Shown here piece after piece: positions 34,360 to 40,946 of a stretch of DNA of 42,566 nucleotides. Positions within the stretch are counted from its first letter, which is position 1. Each line of letters starts with the position of its first letter. This DNA comes from an uncultured Collinsella sp. (GTDB lineage: Bacteria > Actinomycetota > Coriobacteriia > Coriobacteriales > Coriobacteriaceae): the NCBI GenBank assembly GCA_902465105.1, contig CABQLM010000007.1:1-42566 (forward strand), given 5' to 3'. The notes below the pieces were generated by a model. That model had not been told where the DNA came from, did not search any database, and saw only the letters and a list, made by a program, of their open reading frames with translations. The position numbers and the translations under genes are program-made.

Positions 34360-34494
34360 CTAGACAGTGAGACGCTTGCGGCCCTTGGCGCGACGACGGG
34401 CGAGCACGGCACGACCACCCTTGGTGGCCATACGGGCACGGAAGCCATGGGTCTTGGCACGCTTACGCTTATTAGGCTGATACGTACGCTTCAT
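34360..34494 (-). CDS. rpmH: 50S ribosomal protein L34
   Basis: Canonical 44-residue L34: [18 protein letters not shown] and the basic tail with [12 protein letters not shown]. The frame is open 20 codons further, but AGGAGG lies eight bases before the ATG at 34494 and decides the start. It heads the rpmH-rnpA-yidD-yidC-jag operon, transcribed away from the origin. Confidence 0.98.
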
Positions 34495-34619
34495 CTTAAG
34501 TTCCTCCTGCTGCATTTCGAGTGTCCGCGGGGGCGCGGACGCAGATATAGACACGTGAGCTTGAAGATTGTAGGGAAATCAATGTTCAAATGTCAAGAAA
34601 TCAAAGGTAAAAGGTTGCG

Positions 34620-34839
34620 TAGTTCACACGGTTCCGCCATAAGCCGGATGAGTTTTTGAGTATGTCGCCAACTTTTCACGATATTTCACCGAGTTTTCAA
34701 CAGGTCATGTTGGCAATGTTGAGAACTTTTCGCCCGTTTTCCAAAGTTTTCAACAGGTTTTGAAAACTTGTCGAAAGATGAGAAACATTGCGCGGTGAGC
34801 TACTATTTATCCGAAACCTTTTGAAAGATTGCGAGCGGC
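34620..34839. other. oriC: oriC, left part (DnaA-box-like cluster)
   Basis: The gap between the divergent rpmH and ATPase-gene starts has no gene. It carries two exact copies of AGTTTTCAACAGGT (34692-34705, 34745-34758), each containing the DnaA-box-like TTTTCAACA. There are also degenerate versions TTTTCCAAA (34737-34745), TTTTCACGA near 34673 and TTATCCGAA (34807-34815), and GAAAACTTGTCGAAA (34762-34776), which recurs after dnaA. A TACTAT box at 34801-34806 may be the -10 of the downstream gene. The origin role is inferred from position and sites. Confidence 0.7.
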
Positions 34840-36216
34840 ATGTCTGACGACTTTTACACCATGGTCGATTCCGGTGACCCGGCACCCGACAACGAGCATA
34901 TCAACGGCGTGCGCGAAGAGCGCAAAGAGGGCGAGCTGGCATCAAAACGGGCACCGAAAACCATGTACGCGGCGCGCATCGCCGTCTATGACGACATGCT
35001 TTCGACCCCGCGCGTGATCGTCATCGAGCCGCAGGACATCCGCACGTATCTGGAAGAAACGACCAACACCGTCTATCAGTGTATGAAAGAGCAGGGCGGA
35101 CACATCTCGCTCATGGTTATCCGCGAGATAGTCGAAAACTTTATCCATGCCCACTTTGCCGAGCCCATCATCTCGATCCTGGACGGCGGCGATACCATAC
35201 GATTCGCAGACCAGGGGCCGGGAATCGACGACAAGGAGCGCGCCTTCGACTTTGGCGTGACCAGCGCAAACAGCAAGATGAAGCGGTACATACGCGGCAC
35301 CGGGGCAGGCTTTCCCATGGTGCAGGAATACTTGGAAAACGCCGGAGGCGCGGTGTCCATCGAAGACAACATGGGCAACGGCACCGTCGTCACGGTGAGC
35401 CTCGACCCCAAGCGCGTGCAGGAAATTGAGCACGCGGGCGGGCGCGGGGCGGCCGTGCGCCCCGAGGCCGAGCAGCCGGAATACCCCCTGCCGGGTGCAT
35501 TTCCACAGCAAGCAATGCTGGCTCCGCAACAATCCATGGCCGCGCCCCCGCTGCAGCAGCCTATGGTATCGCAGCAGATACAGCAACCCGGCATGCCGCC
35601 TATGCAAGACCCCCAGCCCACGGGACAGACGACAACTCAAGGCTCGGCCGAGTCCATGCTCTCGGCCGATCCGGATGCAGCCGCGATGCAGCAGGTAACA
35701 GGCATGCAAGGCGCTCAACAGATGGGCTTCCAGCCATACCCGCAGGGATATCCGGGACAATACATGCCGCAGCAGGGATATCCCCAGCAATACATGCAGC
35801 AGTATCCCCAGGGTTATCAGCAGCCGTATCAGCAGATGCTGCAGCCGTACAATCCCTGGCCCCAGCAGATGCCGCCGCAGCCATACCAACAGTGGCCGCA
35901 AAGTTTTCAACAACAGATGCCGCCCATGCAGAGTTCTCAACAACCAGCAGCTCAAATGATGTATCCTAATGCGGCAAATCAATACGCACAGCCGCAACCG
36001 GACGTTTTTGTGAGCGAGCGCGGCAACGCGGCGCTTGGATATCTGGCTCAAAACCAAGAGTGTGGCGCCACCGACCTGGCGCGAGCATTTGGAAACTCCG
36101 CACCCACGTGGTCACGCACGCTCAATGACTTGGCGCAGGCCGGCTTGGTAATCAAACACGGTCAGAAATACCATCTGACCGAACTCGGCAGCGCTCGCGT
36201 GCGTGCCCAAAGTTAA
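34840..36216 (+). CDS. Origin-located GHKL-ATPase / Gln-Pro-Met-rich / winged-helix protein of unknown function
   Basis: A 458-residue protein directly upstream of dnaA. Residues about 60-190 form a GHKL (histidine-kinase-like) ATPase: N box REIVENFIHAHF (Asn100), G1 box DQGPGID (from 124), G2 box RGTGAGFPMVQEYLENAGG (from 152) and GNGTVVTVSL. No HisKA domain or receiver is present. Residues about 215-385 are a low-complexity Gln/Pro/Met/Tyr-rich segment with PQGYPxQYMPQQGYPQQ-type repeats. Residues about 386-458 look like a winged helix (NAALGYLAQNQECGATDLARAF, then TWSRTLNDLAQAGLVIKHG). dnaA starts 15 bp later, so the two are co-transcribed. The role is unknown; its place suggests control of initiation or dnaA expression. 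The ribosome site is weak (GAGCGG). Confidence 0.85.
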   Translation: MSDDFYTMVDSGDPAPDNEHINGVREERKEGELASKRAPKTMYAARIAVYDDMLSTPRVIVIEPQDIRTYLEETTNTVYQCMKEQGGHISLMVIREIVENFIHAHFAEPIISILDGGDTIRFADQGPGIDDKERAFDFGVTSANSKMKRYIRGTGAGFPMVQEYLENAGGAVSIEDNMGNGTVVTVSLDPKRVQEIEHAGGRGAAVRPEAEQPEYPLPGAFPQQAMLAPQQSMAAPPLQQPMVSQQIQQPGMPPMQDPQPTGQTTTQGSAESMLSADPDAAAMQQVTGMQGAQQMGFQPYPQGYPGQYMPQQGYPQQYMQQYPQGYQQPYQQMLQPYNPWPQQMPPQPYQQWPQSFQQQMPPMQSSQQPAAQMMYPNAANQYAQPQPDVFVSERGNAALGYLAQNQECGATDLARAFGNSAPTWSRTLNDLAQAGLVIKHGQKYHLTELGSARVRAQS

Positions 36217-36231
36217 GGAACGGGAGAGACA

Positions 36232-37938
36232 GTGGACGAGGAAGCAAGCATCATCCTGGAGGATGCCATCGCCTTTTGCCAGCGCGACGGCCAAGATGCA
36301 CGCCTCATCAACATGCTGGGGCAATCGCGAGCCATAAGCTTGACCGAGGACACCTTGACCATCGAGGCACCGTCGCGCTTTGCCATTGCGCAGCTCAAAA
36401 AGCATCAGCCGACTATCGAGCACTATCTAGAAGAGATTGCCTTTGCGCCGATCGCACTCAACATCGTGGCACCGCAGGGCTCCGCGGCAGATAATGCCGC
36501 GCCCGCAGCGCCCGTCGTCTCCCCGACGGCGCACGTCGCCGCCCCCATGCCGGCCCCCGAGCCCCAAATTGGCGATGTTTCCCGTGAAACCATGCCCACC
36601 GCCCCCACATCGGTGGCCCCCTCGCCCGGCGCCACGCATATGCCCATCGCGCATGACATAACGCCGGGCGAGGATTCGGGCATCGCAATCAAAAACACAC
36701 TTTCGGCCGATGATTTCCGCCGCATGATGAACCGGATGAAAGGCGGGGCGTCTGCAAAGAGCGCAAAACCCGCCTCGGCACCGCCTACGAGCACTCCGAC
36801 GGCGACGGCTCCGATCGAGCAGAACACCGATGGCGCGCCCCTCGCGGCCAACTCGAAATTCACCTTTGAAAACTTTGTCTATGGCCCCGAAAACAGTCAC
36901 GCCTATCGTTCGGCGCTCAAGTTCGCCGCGCTCGCGGACGAACGCGGTACGTGCACGTCTCTATTCATCTATGGCAAATCGGGGCTGGGCAAAACCCACC
37001 TGCTGCTCGCCATCAAAAACGAGCTCGCCGAAAAGTCGCCCGAGATCAAAGTGAAGTACGCCAATTCTCAAGCATACCTCGATGACCTGATGACGGAGTT
37101 TGACCGCCAAAAGAAGAGCAACGCCCCCATCATGCAGTCATACCACGGCGTGGACGTGCTCATCATCGATGACATCCAAAACATCATCGGCAAGCGCGCG
37201 AGCGTAGATTACTTCTTCCAACTCATGGACGAGTTTATCCGCAACAACAAAAAAGTCGTCATCGCAGCCGATCGCGCGCCCAAAGACCTAAACATGGACG
37301 AGCGCCTGACCAGCCGCTTTAACGCCGGCATGCTCTGCTTGGTGGCAGAACCCAGCTACGAGATGAAATACAAGATCTTGCAGCGCTACTACGAGAACAC
37401 GATAGCCGCCGCGCCCGAGGCGGGTAATGACTCGCTGCTGTCAGCCTACGGCGGTGACGGCGGACATCTGACCGACGAACACTTTAAGCACATGGCGGAG
37501 GTGTCAGGCACCAACATCCGTGAGCTCGAGAGCTTCTGCGAACGTTGCGCCGGCGAGGCGGGAGACCGTGAGCGTGAGGGTGGCGAGCTCAGTTTCGACG
37601 ATATCGACACCATCGCAAGCCAGTACTTCGACACGTCGGCCAAAAAGATCAACGTGCAGACGGTCCAGTCCGTCATCGAGGAGCAGTACGGCGTGACACA
37701 CGAGGAGCTCATCGGACCGCGCCGCAATGCCAATATAGCCAAAGCGCGCCATATCGCCATCTATCTGGCCATCGAGATGTGCGAGATGACAACCACGGCC
37801 GTGGGTGCGGAGTTTGGCAACCGCAACCACTCAACCGTCAGCACGAGCTACAAAAAGGTCCAGAAAATGATTCAGGAAGATCGCACCGTAACCGAGGATC
37901 TCAAATCGCTGCGAGATAAAATTACACTGCGCTCGTAG
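36232..37938 (+). CDS. dnaA: Chromosomal replication initiator protein DnaA
   Basis: The 568-residue initiator has all four domains. Domain I (1-80) is divergent and has no Trp, but the LTIEAPSRFAIAQLKKHQPTI segment is recognisable. Domain II (about 80-205) is a long Pro/Ala-rich linker. Domain III has FTFENFVYG, Walker A GKSGLGKTH (about 248), Walker B DVLIIDDIQNI and the sensor ERLTSRFNAGM. Domain IV has IGPRRNANIAKARHIAIYLA and the DNA-binding signature GAEFGNRNHSTVSTSYKKV. A GTG start follows GGGAGAG. A parS-like 16-mer lies in the domain II codons (DVSRETMP). The ATPase gene precedes it and dnaN follows after the oriC gap. Confidence 0.97.
   Translation: MDEEASIILEDAIAFCQRDGQDARLINMLGQSRAISLTEDTLTIEAPSRFAIAQLKKHQPTIEHYLEEIAFAPIALNIVAPQGSAADNAAPAAPVVSPTAHVAAPMPAPEPQIGDVSRETMPTAPTSVAPSPGATHMPIAHDITPGEDSGIAIKNTLSADDFRRMMNRMKGGASAKSAKPASAPPTSTPTATAPIEQNTDGAPLAANSKFTFENFVYGPENSHAYRSALKFAALADERGTCTSLFIYGKSGLGKTHLLLAIKNELAEKSPEIKVKYANSQAYLDDLMTEFDRQKKSNAPIMQSYHGVDVLIIDDIQNIIGKRASVDYFFQLMDEFIRNNKKVVIAADRAPKDLNMDERLTSRFNAGMLCLVAEPSYEMKYKILQRYYENTIAAAPEAGNDSLLSAYGGDGGHLTDEHFKHMAEVSGTNIRELESFCERCAGEAGDREREGGELSFDDIDTIASQYFDTSAKKINVQTVQSVIEEQYGVTHEELIGPRRNANIAKARHIAIYLAIEMCEMTTTAVGAEFGNRNHSTVSTSYKKVQKMIQEDRTVTEDLKSLRDKITLRS
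36576..36591. other. parS-like site within dnaA
   Basis: TGTTTCCCGTGAAACC differs from the parS consensus at two of 16 bases (one within the 14-base core). It is read in frame as Val-Ser-Arg-Glu-Thr in the linker domain, where protein constraint is low. Confidence 0.55.
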
Positions 37939-38176
37939 GGAAATAGAGACATCTGTTGAAAACTTGTCGAAACACAGGACATAACATGTCTAAAACTCGC
38001 CCCTCGACGATGAAAAGTTTTCCGCAGGTTTTGAACGTGGAAAACACAACCGGTTGCGCACAGGGTGCTGTCGATTCTCTTTTTAGGCTTGACCAGCGGC
38101 TTTTGAAGTAATCAACAGTTTCGTCAGTACTATTACTATTATTAAGATATTTATATCTAAGGAAAGGTATTAAAAG
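37939..38176. other. oriC: oriC, right part (DnaA boxes, AT-rich unwinding region)
   Basis: The dnaA-dnaN gap holds a reverse TTTTCAACA (37954-37962), GAAAACTTGTCGAAA (37958-37972, identical to 34762-34776), TTTTCCGCA (38018-38026) and reverse TTTTCCACG (38036-38044). TAATCAACA is at 38109-38117, followed by an A/T-rich stretch 38120-38160. The latter contains five consecutive TAA/TAG triplets on the minus strand (38130-38144). This box-then-trio order with an AT-rich tail is what is known for the B. subtilis dnaA-dnaN unwinding region. Confidence 0.78.
38130..38144 (-). other. DnaA-trio array (putative unwinding element)
   Basis: The minus strand reads TAATAATAGTAATAG, five uninterrupted TAA/TAG triplets, equal to 3'-[A/G]AT-5' repeats. 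A degenerate sixth (TAC) follows. A DnaA-box-like sequence (TAATCAACA) lies 12 bp away on the expected side. Confidence 0.65.
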
Positions 38177-39280
38177 ATGAAGTTCACCGTCAGCCAAAGC
38201 TCGCTCACGCAAGCCATCGGCGTCGTTATGAAAGGCGTCGCTTCGGCATCCACCCTTCCCATCCTGTCGGGCGTGCTCGTTAAGGCGCAGGACGGCATCT
38301 TGGAATTCCAAACCTCAAATTACACCATCTCGATTCGCCATCGCATTGCCGCGCACGTCGAGGAAGAGGGCGAGATGGTGATCCCTTGCAAGATGCTCTC
38401 CAACATCACCAAGACCCTTCCCGATGCCCCGGTTTCCTTTGAGCTGTCGGAACGCCAGGTACTGATTGGATGCGAGAAGAGTTCCTTCCGTCTCAACACG
38501 CTCGACGCCAACGACTTCCCCGAGTTTCCGGCCTATGCTATCGAGAGTGCCGTGGAGCTTCCGACCGACATCCTGTCCGAGATGGTCGGCCGCGTGTGGC
38601 GCGTCACGTCGACCGATAAGGCTCGCCCCATCCTGGGCGGCGTGCATATGAAAGTCGAGAACAACACCGTGCGCCTGGTGGCAACCGATTCCTTCCGCCT
38701 CGCCGTGTGCGACACCCAGGTCGAGACCTCGACGCTCGAGGGCTCTTTTGAGCTCAACGTTCCGGCCGATGCCTTCAACGACGCCCTGAGCATCATGGCC
38801 AGCCAGGCGACTATCATGATCGGCGCTACCGACACTCAGGTTGTCTTTGAGGCCGGCAACACCACTTACGTGTCGCGCCGCATCGAGGGCGTGTATCCCA
38901 ACTACAAGCAGCTCATTCCCGATTCATGTGTGACGAGCGTCAAGATCGACGTGGCGGCTTTCAATGCCGCTCTCAAGCGCGTGGCGGTCATCGCAAGTGC
39001 CAACCCCGCCGTCAAGTTCGAGATCGATGTCGAGAACGGCCAGATGGGCCTGTCCTCCATCTCCAACGACCAGGACCTGGCACAGGAGACGATCGATGTC
39101 GAGGCCGAGGGCGAGTCGGGCACTATCGCCTTTAACTACCACTACATCTTTGGCTGTCTCAACGCCCTGTCCAAGGAGAAGGAGATCACGCTGGAGCTCA
39201 AGAGCTACTCACGGGCCGGCATCTTTAAGTCCTACGACAAAATCAACTATCTGTACCTAGTCATGCCGGTGCGCATCTAG
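38177..39280 (+). CDS. dnaN: DNA polymerase III beta sliding clamp
   Basis: The 367-residue clamp tethers polymerase to DNA. Three similar domains are visible, with MKFTVSQSSLTQAIGVVMKGV at the start, LPILSGVLVKAQDG, the central PILGGVHMKVENNTVRLVATDSFRLAV, and the C-terminal ALSKEKEITLELKS ... YLYLVMPVRI. AAGGAAAGG precedes the ATG. recF starts ten bases after the stop. Confidence 0.98.
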   Translation: MKFTVSQSSLTQAIGVVMKGVASASTLPILSGVLVKAQDGILEFQTSNYTISIRHRIAAHVEEEGEMVIPCKMLSNITKTLPDAPVSFELSERQVLIGCEKSSFRLNTLDANDFPEFPAYAIESAVELPTDILSEMVGRVWRVTSTDKARPILGGVHMKVENNTVRLVATDSFRLAVCDTQVETSTLEGSFELNVPADAFNDALSIMASQATIMIGATDTQVVFEAGNTTYVSRRIEGVYPNYKQLIPDSCVTSVKIDVAAFNAALKRVAVIASANPAVKFEIDVENGQMGLSSISNDQDLAQETIDVEAEGESGTIAFNYHYIFGCLNALSKEKEITLELKSYSRAGIFKSYDKINYLYLVMPVRI

Positions 39281-39289
39281 CGGCGCCCT

Positions 39290-40396
39290 ATGGCCATGTT
39301 CGCCCGCGATCTTTCCGTCGCGCGCTACCGTAGTTTCGATAACTACCGTCTTGCCTTGGACAAGGGCGTGACGGTGCTCGCGGGGCCCAACGCGGCGGGA
39401 AAGACCAACCTCATAGAGGCGCTGCAGCTGCTAACGAGTGGAGCCTCGTTTAGGCACCCCACTGCCGTCGAGCTTGTGCACGACGGCACAGGTTTGTGCA
39501 AGGCCGAGCTTAGGCTCGAGGGCGATGGCCGCGTGCTAGACATGGGTCTACGCGTGGAGGACGGCAAGCGTTCGTTTAGCCGCAACGGCAAGCGGTGTGC
39601 CGCCTCTGGCGTGCGCGGCGTGCTGCCGAGTGTTTTGTTCTGCCCCGATCATCTGGATATGGTCAAGCGCGGTGCCAGCGTGCGTCGCACCGCACTCGAC
39701 GACTTTGGCGTGCAGCTGAGCGCCCGCTATGCCGATCTGGCAAGCGCCTATGGCCGCTGCGTGACGCAGCGCAACGCTCTGCTCAAAGAGACGTGGTGCT
39801 GTCGCGAGATGCTCGGTGCGTGGAATGAGTCGATTGCCCGCGCCGGATCGGCCCTGCTGGTGCACCGCTTGGCCTTGCTCGATCGCTTGGCCGCCCACGT
39901 GCGCGATGCCTACGGACTGGTTGCGTCCGGGGAGGCGGCCGATGTGGCCTATGCGTCCACACTGGGGGAGCTGCCCCAGACCGATGACCGCGAGGAGCTG
40001 AGGGGTTGGGCATACGAGCGCATGCTCACGGCGCTCGATGAGCGCGCCGATGAGGAGATACGCCGCGGCGTGACGCTCGTCGGCCCGCATCGCGATGAGA
40101 TTGAGTTTTCGGTCGCCGGCCGCTCGGCCCGCTCTTTCGCCAGCCAGGGTCAGCAGCGTACGCTGGTGCTGGCTTGGAAAGTGGCCGAGGTGGCCGTCGC
40201 CCGCGATATTCTGGGTACCGCCCCACTGTTGCTTTTGGATGACGTGATGAGCGAGCTCGACGGCGATCGCCGCGGAGCCTTTCTGCAATTGATCGGCGAT
40301 GACATCCAGACGGTCATAACCACCACCAACCTGGGGTACTTTACTGATGACCTGCTTGATCGAGCCAAGGTGGTGAGCATGGGTGAGGCGTGCTAA
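39290..40396 (+). CDS. recF: DNA replication and repair protein RecF
   Basis: RecF, an SMC-like ATPase, loads RecA at gaps with RecOR. The 368-residue protein shows Walker A AGPNAAGKTNLIEALQLL, the signature region RSFASQGQQRTLVLAWKVAE, and Walker B/D-loop LLLLDDVMSELDGDRR. VTLVGPHRDEIEF is also typical. An alternative ATG lies two codons downstream at 39296; no clear ribosome site is visible, which suggests coupling to dnaN. It overlaps the next gene by 14 bp. Confidence 0.96.
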   Translation: MAMFARDLSVARYRSFDNYRLALDKGVTVLAGPNAAGKTNLIEALQLLTSGASFRHPTAVELVHDGTGLCKAELRLEGDGRVLDMGLRVEDGKRSFSRNGKRCAASGVRGVLPSVLFCPDHLDMVKRGASVRRTALDDFGVQLSARYADLASAYGRCVTQRNALLKETWCCREMLGAWNESIARAGSALLVHRLALLDRLAAHVRDAYGLVASGEAADVAYASTLGELPQTDDREELRGWAYERMLTALDERADEEIRRGVTLVGPHRDEIEFSVAGRSARSFASQGQQRTLVLAWKVAEVAVARDILGTAPLLLLDDVMSELDGDRRGAFLQLIGDDIQTVITTTNLGYFTDDLLDRAKVVSMGEAC

Positions 40397-40946
40397 TTAC
40401 GAACGCGAGCACGAGACGGTCGCGTTCAGCGGCTTTTTGAATGCGGAGCGCCAGCGCATTCTGGCTGCCGCGACGCCCGAGCGTCGCGCGCAGATGGAGG
40501 CTGCCGAGGAATCGCGTGCGGTCTATCGCGCCTGGAACGCGGTATGCTCGGGCACGCGTGAGGGGCGCCACGTGACGGGCCTGCGCTACCTGCCCGAGTC
40601 CAACGAGCTGCTGGTGTATCTTGATTCGCCCTCGTGGACGCAGGAGATGACGCTGCTGCGCGAGATCATCCGCGCGCGCATGGAGCGGGCCGGGGCACAT
40701 GTGGACGGCTTGGTGTTCAAAACGACCGCGCCCGGTCACACGCCGTCTGCCGCCAAGGAGCGTCTGCGCCCGGCTGTGACCGAGCGCCCGCCGGCTCCGC
40801 ACGCCGATCTTAGCGAAGCTGAGCGCATCGAGATTGAGCGCCAAGTGGCGCCCATCGAAGACCAAAAGCTCCGCGAGGCCCTCCAGAACGCCATGAGGGC
40901 CAGTGCCGAGTGGGCCAAGGGCGCACATGATAGGAAAGAGCCTTAA
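40383..40946 (+). CDS. DUF721 / DciA-like protein
   Basis: A 187-residue protein in the conserved slot between recF and gyrB. The DUF721 core (about 45-105) includes YRAWNAVCSGTREGRHVTGL, ELLVYLDSPSWTQEMTLLRE and a KH-like fold end (GLVFKT). DUF721 proteins include DciA, which helps load the replicative helicase in bacteria lacking DnaC/DnaI; the equivalent role here is inferred. The C-terminal extension is rich in Arg, Glu and Pro. It starts with GTG inside recF, after AAGGTGG. Confidence 0.88.
   Translation: MRRANYEREHETVAFSGFLNAERQRILAAATPERRAQMEAAEESRAVYRAWNAVCSGTREGRHVTGLRYLPESNELLVYLDSPSWTQEMTLLREIIRARMERAGAHVDGLVFKTTAPGHTPSAAKERLRPAVTERPPAPHADLSEAERIEIERQVAPIEDQKLREALQNAMRASAEWAKGAHDRKEP

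Follow-up and report, generated by a model that had tools for sequence, protein, structure and literature searches.

What is a protein that joins a GHKL-type ATPase domain to a winged helix doing in the gap between rpmH and dnaA? The question arises in a window of 42,566 nucleotides (the whole stretch of DNA analysed) from an uncultured Collinsella sp. (GenBank assembly GCA_902465105.1, contig CABQLM010000007.1), where such a gene, here called X, sits between rpmH and dnaA amid DnaA-box-like repeats. A first-pass annotation, made from the letters alone, had placed the gene 15 bp before dnaA and proposed a nucleotide-switched, DNA-binding factor with a prion-like linker; the placement is confirmed by our coordinates, with 15 bp between the stop codon of X and the GTG of dnaA. 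Comparison of sequences and predicted folds leads us to read X as a nucleotide-controlled, DNA-binding dedicated partner of the dnaA/oriC system, a reading on which our judgement is evenly divided. X is probably ATP-switched and DNA-binding, and it is a strong candidate for a new control of chromosome replication timing. The earlier interpretation is thus partly supported, its core idea strengthened and its prion-like emphasis weakened. Little is known about the control of DnaA beyond a handful of model bacteria, and X is a concrete small protein that can be tested in vitro.

The position of the gene was followed through 141 X loci, namely 60 of the window's class, 60 from other genomes of the phylum and 21 from further genomes. 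Both sets of 60 were hand-picked, the class set from matches listed to about E 1e-54 with Collinsella excluded, and the 21 further genomes came from 30 loci (nine repeated genomes) that included some weaker matches. In 130 of the 141 (57 + 53 + 20), the first gene recognised after X is dnaA, encoded on the same strand, while in the remaining 11 the contig ends directly after X (L072, L104, L110, L123, L155, L183, L184, L187, L197, L207 and L211). Every relative with downstream sequence (130/130) therefore keeps the X-dnaA order, rather than carrying X at random positions, and the coupling to dnaA claimed in the first-pass annotation stands; a chance open reading frame is likewise ruled out by this synteny. 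Upstream, rpmH lies on the opposite strand in 60/60 class loci and in 57/60 of the others, three being cut. For loci beyond the class, a first in-frame dnaA start could be placed in 46, and in 42 of these the predicted start follows the stop codon of X by 25 nt or less; in L077-L112 the X-dnaA gap is longer. Among the 130 is L142 (genome G038), where the stretch upstream of X yielded no rpmH but a dnaN match on the opposite strand, so that this is a rearranged origin region with X-dnaA intact. The dnaA frame of L163 is short, begins about 490 bp past X and is probably interrupted.

The HATPase_c family of Pfam (PF02518) matches residues 93-190 of the window's X at an E-value of 5.3e-11, over its cut-off, and it matches 26/26 X members; the N, G1 and G2 boxes that characterise the GHKL/Bergerat superfamily are intact. 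Pfam matches to a HisKA-type or receiver domain were absent from the window's X at E <= 1 and from the 26 members at E <= 0.01 (25 of 31 matched families inspected), in agreement with the earlier description of a complete GHKL ATPase without either. A two-component histidine kinase is accordingly rejected, since the HisKA-type dimerisation/phosphoacceptor domain is not found. At the C-terminus, matches to PF25213 and MarR_2 (residues 398-452) score under their Pfam cut-offs and the AlphaFold2 model agrees with them: residues 391-458, with a predicted local distance difference test (pLDDT) score of 93-98, resemble MarR-type structures and adopt the winged helix-turn-helix fold of MarR/TrmB-type proteins. 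A winged-helix match is present in 60/60 class loci, so the C-terminal winged helix already proposed is borne out. In the same model, pLDDT is 65-97 per block of ten over residues 41-200, mostly below 50 in the linker and 67.4 on average for the whole protein; the model of a short form (L172) has a mean of 84.8. A defence gene was considered and dropped, as the PADLOC matches of the three sequences tried fall solely within the winged-helix part.

Sequence constraint falls on the nucleotide-binding residues. In 61 aligned class sequences, E96, E99, N100, H103, D124, G126-G128, K132, G139, R152, G153, G155, G157, P159, N177 and G181 are invariant, and the N-terminal motif is kept at F5 (61/61), Y6 (57/61), P7 (58/61) and V9 (60/61). 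Across the phylum (26 sequences), the N-box Glu and Asn, D-x-G-P-G and the G2 glycines are all invariant, the N-box counterparts E97 and N101 of A3 being present in 26/26. Between two large Coriobacteriia groups (the window with L053-L072 against L077-L112), mean identity reaches 0.52 for X and 0.53 for DnaN against 0.35 for DnaA, and within the groups X exceeds DnaA (0.71 vs 0.68; 0.64 vs 0.58). At other-class loci, however, DnaA is more conserved than X (0.54 vs 0.44), and the claim that X is the better conserved is therefore limited to Coriobacteriia. Pairwise X identities track those of DnaN (Spearman 0.75) and DnaA (0.60), which would be expected under shared descent and does not prove it. 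These identities were computed on trimmed columns for 106 of 121 loci, the sequence retrieved for the others lacking dnaA or dnaN. A tie between X and loss of DnaA domain I was also considered. In a hand-picked comparison of 20 DnaAs, DnaA_N (domain I) had no match in 4/4 tested Coriobacteriia DnaAs encoded with X (window, L055, L076, L097), whereas it was matched by 6/6 further DnaAs encoded with X and by 9/10 from X-less loci (two of these under cut-off), so that X is unlinked to this loss.

A Collinsella-only gene can be ruled out, because X is matched in most genomes of the class and in other genomes of the phylum. The genome-contig scan gave 20 loci, all Collinsella. In the window's class (that of G001, a Collinsella genome), 376/396 genomes match X at E <= 1e-3; counted by eye, 341 do so at E < 1e-20 and 35 weakly (E between 1e-6 and 1e-3), which leaves 20 with no match. 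A family profile run on 396 genomes sampled from the phylum matched 156 of them at E <= 1e-12. X was found in 30/36 genomes of the class of G708, in 30/39 of the class of G576 and, patchily, in 60/149 of the class of G672. Genomes numbered G397 and up were taken as outside the window's class; most of those fetched are in these three class lists, and a group including L155, L159 and L163-L167 appears in none of them. Positive genomes of the three classes have one X match each, except G758 (a second, weak one). The single-sequence query matched many genomes of the window's class 2-5 times each, and two extra G001 matches that were inspected (L023, L024) have no dnaA alongside. The G708 protein (L172) has the same sequence as a database entry labelled Ca. 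Oleimmundimicrobium; a few matching database entries bear Firmicutes, Clostridia or Cyanobacteriota names and may be misbinned.

Absences were followed to the dnaA locus. In genomes lacking a clear X hit, 54 dnaA loci were inspected and the X profile matched in none; contig ends cut some of these loci. In the window's class, 30 of the 55 genomes with no or a weak match were checked; nine match the window's DnaA and have no X in those dnaA loci, and the 21/30 scored as lacking dnaA may include missed matches, the window's DnaA being a divergent query. In the other three classes, 35 X-less genomes were taken (all 9 of the class of G576, all 6 of the class of G708 and 20 of the 89 of the class of G672), of which 26 have dnaA (1/9, 5/6 and 20/20, respectively), and no X profile match was present in their 27 dnaA loci, some contig-cut. 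Judged from these loci, the absence of X is mostly missing assembly in the class of G576; it is real elsewhere, the class of G672 included.

The linker between the two domains behaves differently. The Gln/Pro/Met/Tyr-rich segment pointed out earlier is present, and in 21 Collinsella sequences the linker has a median length of 194 residues with 26% Gln and 17% Pro. Its length is 182-206 residues in Collinsella, 125-212 in L053-L072, 106-144 in L073-L076 and 34-143 in L077-L112. In other classes, 15-69 residues that are charged (31% DEKR) and poor in Gln (6%) join the two retained domains (these figures omit 3/36 and 13/60 sequences with an unrecognised domain end). A prion-like linker as the conserved feature is thereby ruled out, a central role for it is not supported, and the low-complexity arm, lying outside the conserved core, is best read as a derived trait.

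Allowing up to one mismatch, the window contains nine copies of AGTTTTCAAC, all between 34692 and 37964: four sites are in the rpmH-X gap, three in X (two of them in the linker), one in dnaA and one in the dnaA-dnaN gap. The repeats upstream of X that had been noted before are thus real, although they are not confined to that side. In 21 Collinsella loci the density is 10.5 sites/kb in the 300 bp upstream of X against 0.01/kb further upstream. G001 has nine copies of the exact 11-mer AGTTTTCAACA and G002 has five; in each genome four copies lie at X-dnaA (in G001 within 3.3 kb). The reversed control of the 11-mer gives 0 (G001) and 1 (G002); the 11-mer is not at X in G020 (none) or G231 (two, elsewhere). 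Box-like sites fall in the X-dnaA gap in L077-L112. In the class of G576, 16/17 fetched loci have exact TTATCCACA close to X, up to 350 bp upstream or 300 bp downstream of it (3-4 copies in 14), and the copies form an array just upstream of X. These repeats are taken as putative DnaA boxes that follow each group's DnaA, X itself being a possible binder instead.

Further sequence sites were noted around the gene. CTGCAAA occurs 32 times in the 320 bp upstream of X in 15/16 loci (L184-L195, L197-L199, L207; background windows 0.044), where it flanks the TTATCCACA array in the alignment, and might be bound by X or by some other protein of the origin; it was not among the enriched upstream words in other groups. 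ACACCTGT/ACAGGTGT lies upstream of X in 8/13 loci between L155 and L179 (background 0.0 in 373 windows). One more AGTTTTCAAC-like site about 5 kb past X was seen in 19/19 long-enough Collinsella loci (L001-L007, L009-L020); L008 is too short to show it, and it was not found in the window itself.

The two linker sites are present in every one of the 21 Collinsella loci. Both use the Ser codon AGT (21/21), which elsewhere in the gene serves for 7/340 Ser codons, and shuffling codons at synonymous positions gave two or more linker sites in 0-2 of 300 shuffles per sequence, these sequences being related and not independent. In L053-L076, 11/24 loci have linker sites, in two frames (SFQQ/SFPQ/GFQQ and xFST), and 13/24 have none; the single site of L053, L060, L061 and L063 was reached in 41-142 of 300 shuffles and is not unusual. 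These observations suggest that the sites are retained as DNA, and not as peptide, in Collinsella and some relatives, a case of a protein-coding sequence apparently shaped by replication-origin sites.

How might such a protein work? As the first gene of the dnaA operon, X would be made together with DnaA. ATP binding closes the dimers of other GHKL proteins; were it to do so here, the closed dimer could set its pair of C-terminal winged helices onto origin or operon-promoter DNA, and ATP hydrolysis or ADP would free X again. Such a switch might tune the action of DnaA at the origin, the transcription of X-dnaA-dnaN, or both, in either direction. The place of X beside dnaA across several classes and its conservation over DnaA in Coriobacteriia point to a core step of origin control. 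Several observations weigh against this reading. In the class of G672, 89/149 genomes have no X and 20/20 checked carry a canonical dnaA; phylum-wide, 18 of 240 X-less genomes were checked (taken from 20 listed, the other two being among the 35 above) and 18/18 have a canonical dnaA without X there, so that X is dispensable for initiation in general. The winged helix is divergent in L201-L205 and L208-L211, of which 7/9 were missed by the class model. Moreover, no operator of X was recognised; the strong repeats nearby are all explicable as DnaA boxes.

Among the alternatives, X could be a transcriptional autoregulator of X-dnaA-dnaN only, with the winged helix on a promoter in the rpmH-X gap, the ATPase sensing ATP/ADP and no direct role in initiation. 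This is possible, though we lean clearly against it. The MarR/TrmB-like type of winged helix, the position of X as the first of the co-oriented genes and close to dnaA, and the conserved CTGCAAA beside DnaA boxes in one class would all suit such a regulator, but the word is not enriched in other groups, a consensus scan recognised no promoter for X (its single hit is on the rpmH strand), and a regulator more conserved than its regulated gene would be unusual.

The partner of dnaA/oriC that we favour can also be drawn more boldly, in a form that we find doubtful. X would then be a second origin factor beside DnaA, a GHKL-switch origin binder that is ORC-like in combining an ATPase with a winged helix but uses another ATPase fold, and it would be an ancient component of the phylum that some lineages have since lost. 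In Collinsella and its relatives, the origin would have extended into the coding sequence of X, making the linker both a flexible arm and a stretch of DnaA boxes. Archaeal Orc1/Cdc6 proteins likewise carry an ATPase and a winged helix and are encoded at the origin; they are AAA+ and X is GHKL, and homology is not claimed.

A role as an RsbW/SpoIIAB-type protein kinase (GHKL without a phospho-His domain), directed at DnaA or another initiation protein and using the winged helix for targeting only, is unlikely. HATPase_c_2 (PF13581, RsbW type) matches just 2/26 X members (best E 0.0038), and SpoIIAB ties with histidine kinases in the fold search; the SpoIIAB/RsbW anti-sigma kinases are not known to carry a winged helix. 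Quite improbable, to our mind, is a structural origin or nucleoid factor in the style of MutL, MORC or Hsp90 that bridges or clamps origin DNA upon ATP, its linker forming condensates in Coriobacteriia: a GHKL fold with a winged helix and a disordered linker of 34-212 residues in the class would fit it, but the linkers of other classes are short and charged, and condensation is conjectural. An orphan sensor histidine kinase fragment retained by chance, suggested by some database entries labelled histidine kinase or ATP-binding protein, is very improbable given the lack of a HisKA/receiver match and the conservation of place and residues across classes; the synteny contradicts it.

With respect to known systems, DIP2311 of Corynebacterium diphtheriae (PDB 3lmm), which we take to be of the AlbA_2/COG2865 type, has chains of about 555 residues with an extra N-terminal part, unlike X, where about 40 residues precede the ATPase and no AlbA_2-type N-terminal domain is matched in Pfam at E <= 1. 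Its function is called unknown in one article (PMC8780604). The catalytic domains of sensor histidine kinases such as CpxA and HK853 differ from X, which has a winged helix and no HisKA/receiver match. DiaA, HobA and SirA are not known to be GHKL-winged-helix proteins, and the named bearers of X (Collinsella; Aquicultor- and Oleimmundimicrobium-type entries) are presumably not Actinomycetes. In another article, these three are taxon-specific regulators that bind DnaA domain I, and the domain I dimer is conserved across Actinomycetes and not in the rest of the phylum (PMC13270200). Since its named bearers would lie where that dimer is not conserved, X may be one of the missing DnaA regulators; DiaA, HobA and SirA are comparable as lineage-restricted proteins acting on DnaA, whereas the link of X to dnaA is one of gene position. 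No publication on the gene was found in titles or abstract openings among the matches listed, as the first-pass annotation had anticipated; the domains are known, and the dnaA-linked family is real, deeply conserved and apparently undescribed.

Table 1. Positions in the window of gene X, its parts, its neighbours and the DnaA-box-like sites.
Feature	Position	Strand	Remarks
Gene X (GHKL ATPase / linker / winged-helix protein, 458 aa)	34840..36216	+	ATG start; stop 36214-36216
N-terminal motif MSDDFYTMV	34840..34866	+	F-Y-P-F-V in most class sequences
GHKL ATPase domain, residues 42-190	34963..35409	+	PF02518
N box, residues 96-103 (E96, E99, N100, H103)	35125..35148	+	all 61/61
G1 box D124-Q-G-P-G-I129	35209..35226	+	D124, G126, P127, G128, I129 61/61
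G2 box R152-G-T-G-A-G157	35293..35310	+	R152, G153, G155, G157 61/61
Disordered Q/P/M/Y-rich linker, residues ~205-388	35452..36003	+	fold model, composition
C-terminal winged helix, residues 390-458	36007..36213	+	G409, L413, S420, W424, G435, K439 61/61; MarR-like fold
rpmH	34360..34554	-	synteny query
rpmH-X gap, upstream portion of presumed origin	34555..34839	no strand	285 bp, 4 box-like sites
DnaA-box-like site AGTTTTCAAC	34692..34701	+	
DnaA-box-like site AGTTCTCAAC	34718..34727	-	
DnaA-box-like site AGTTTTCAAC	34745..34754	+	
DnaA-box-like site AGTTTTCAAA	34759..34768	-	
DnaA-box-like site in ATPase coding sequence	35131..35140	-	N-box codons; may be protein constraint
DnaA-box-like site in linker codons (SFQQ)	35902..35911	+	21/21 Collinsella
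DnaA-box-like site in linker codons (SSQQ)	35932..35941	+	21/21 Collinsella
DnaA-box-like site AGTTTTCAAA within dnaA	36865..36874	-	site there in 2/21 Collinsella only
DnaA-box-like site, dnaA-dnaN gap	37955..37964	-	
dnaA	36232..37938	+	GTG start at 36232; Bac_DnaA PF00308 E 4.9e-42
dnaN	38177..39280	+	synteny query
DciA match	40383..40946		PF05258, E 2.5e-6; downstream of recF

The remaining features of the window concern the replication region at large. The cumulative GC skew has its minimum at 36-40.5 kb, which lends weak support to an origin here, the window being short and the skew wavering earlier too. The window's DnaA scores under the TIGR00362 cut-off (307.6 vs 343.9 bits). A gene for a helicase-loading factor is present, the DciA match after recF, and X as a substitute for this loader was set aside on that account.
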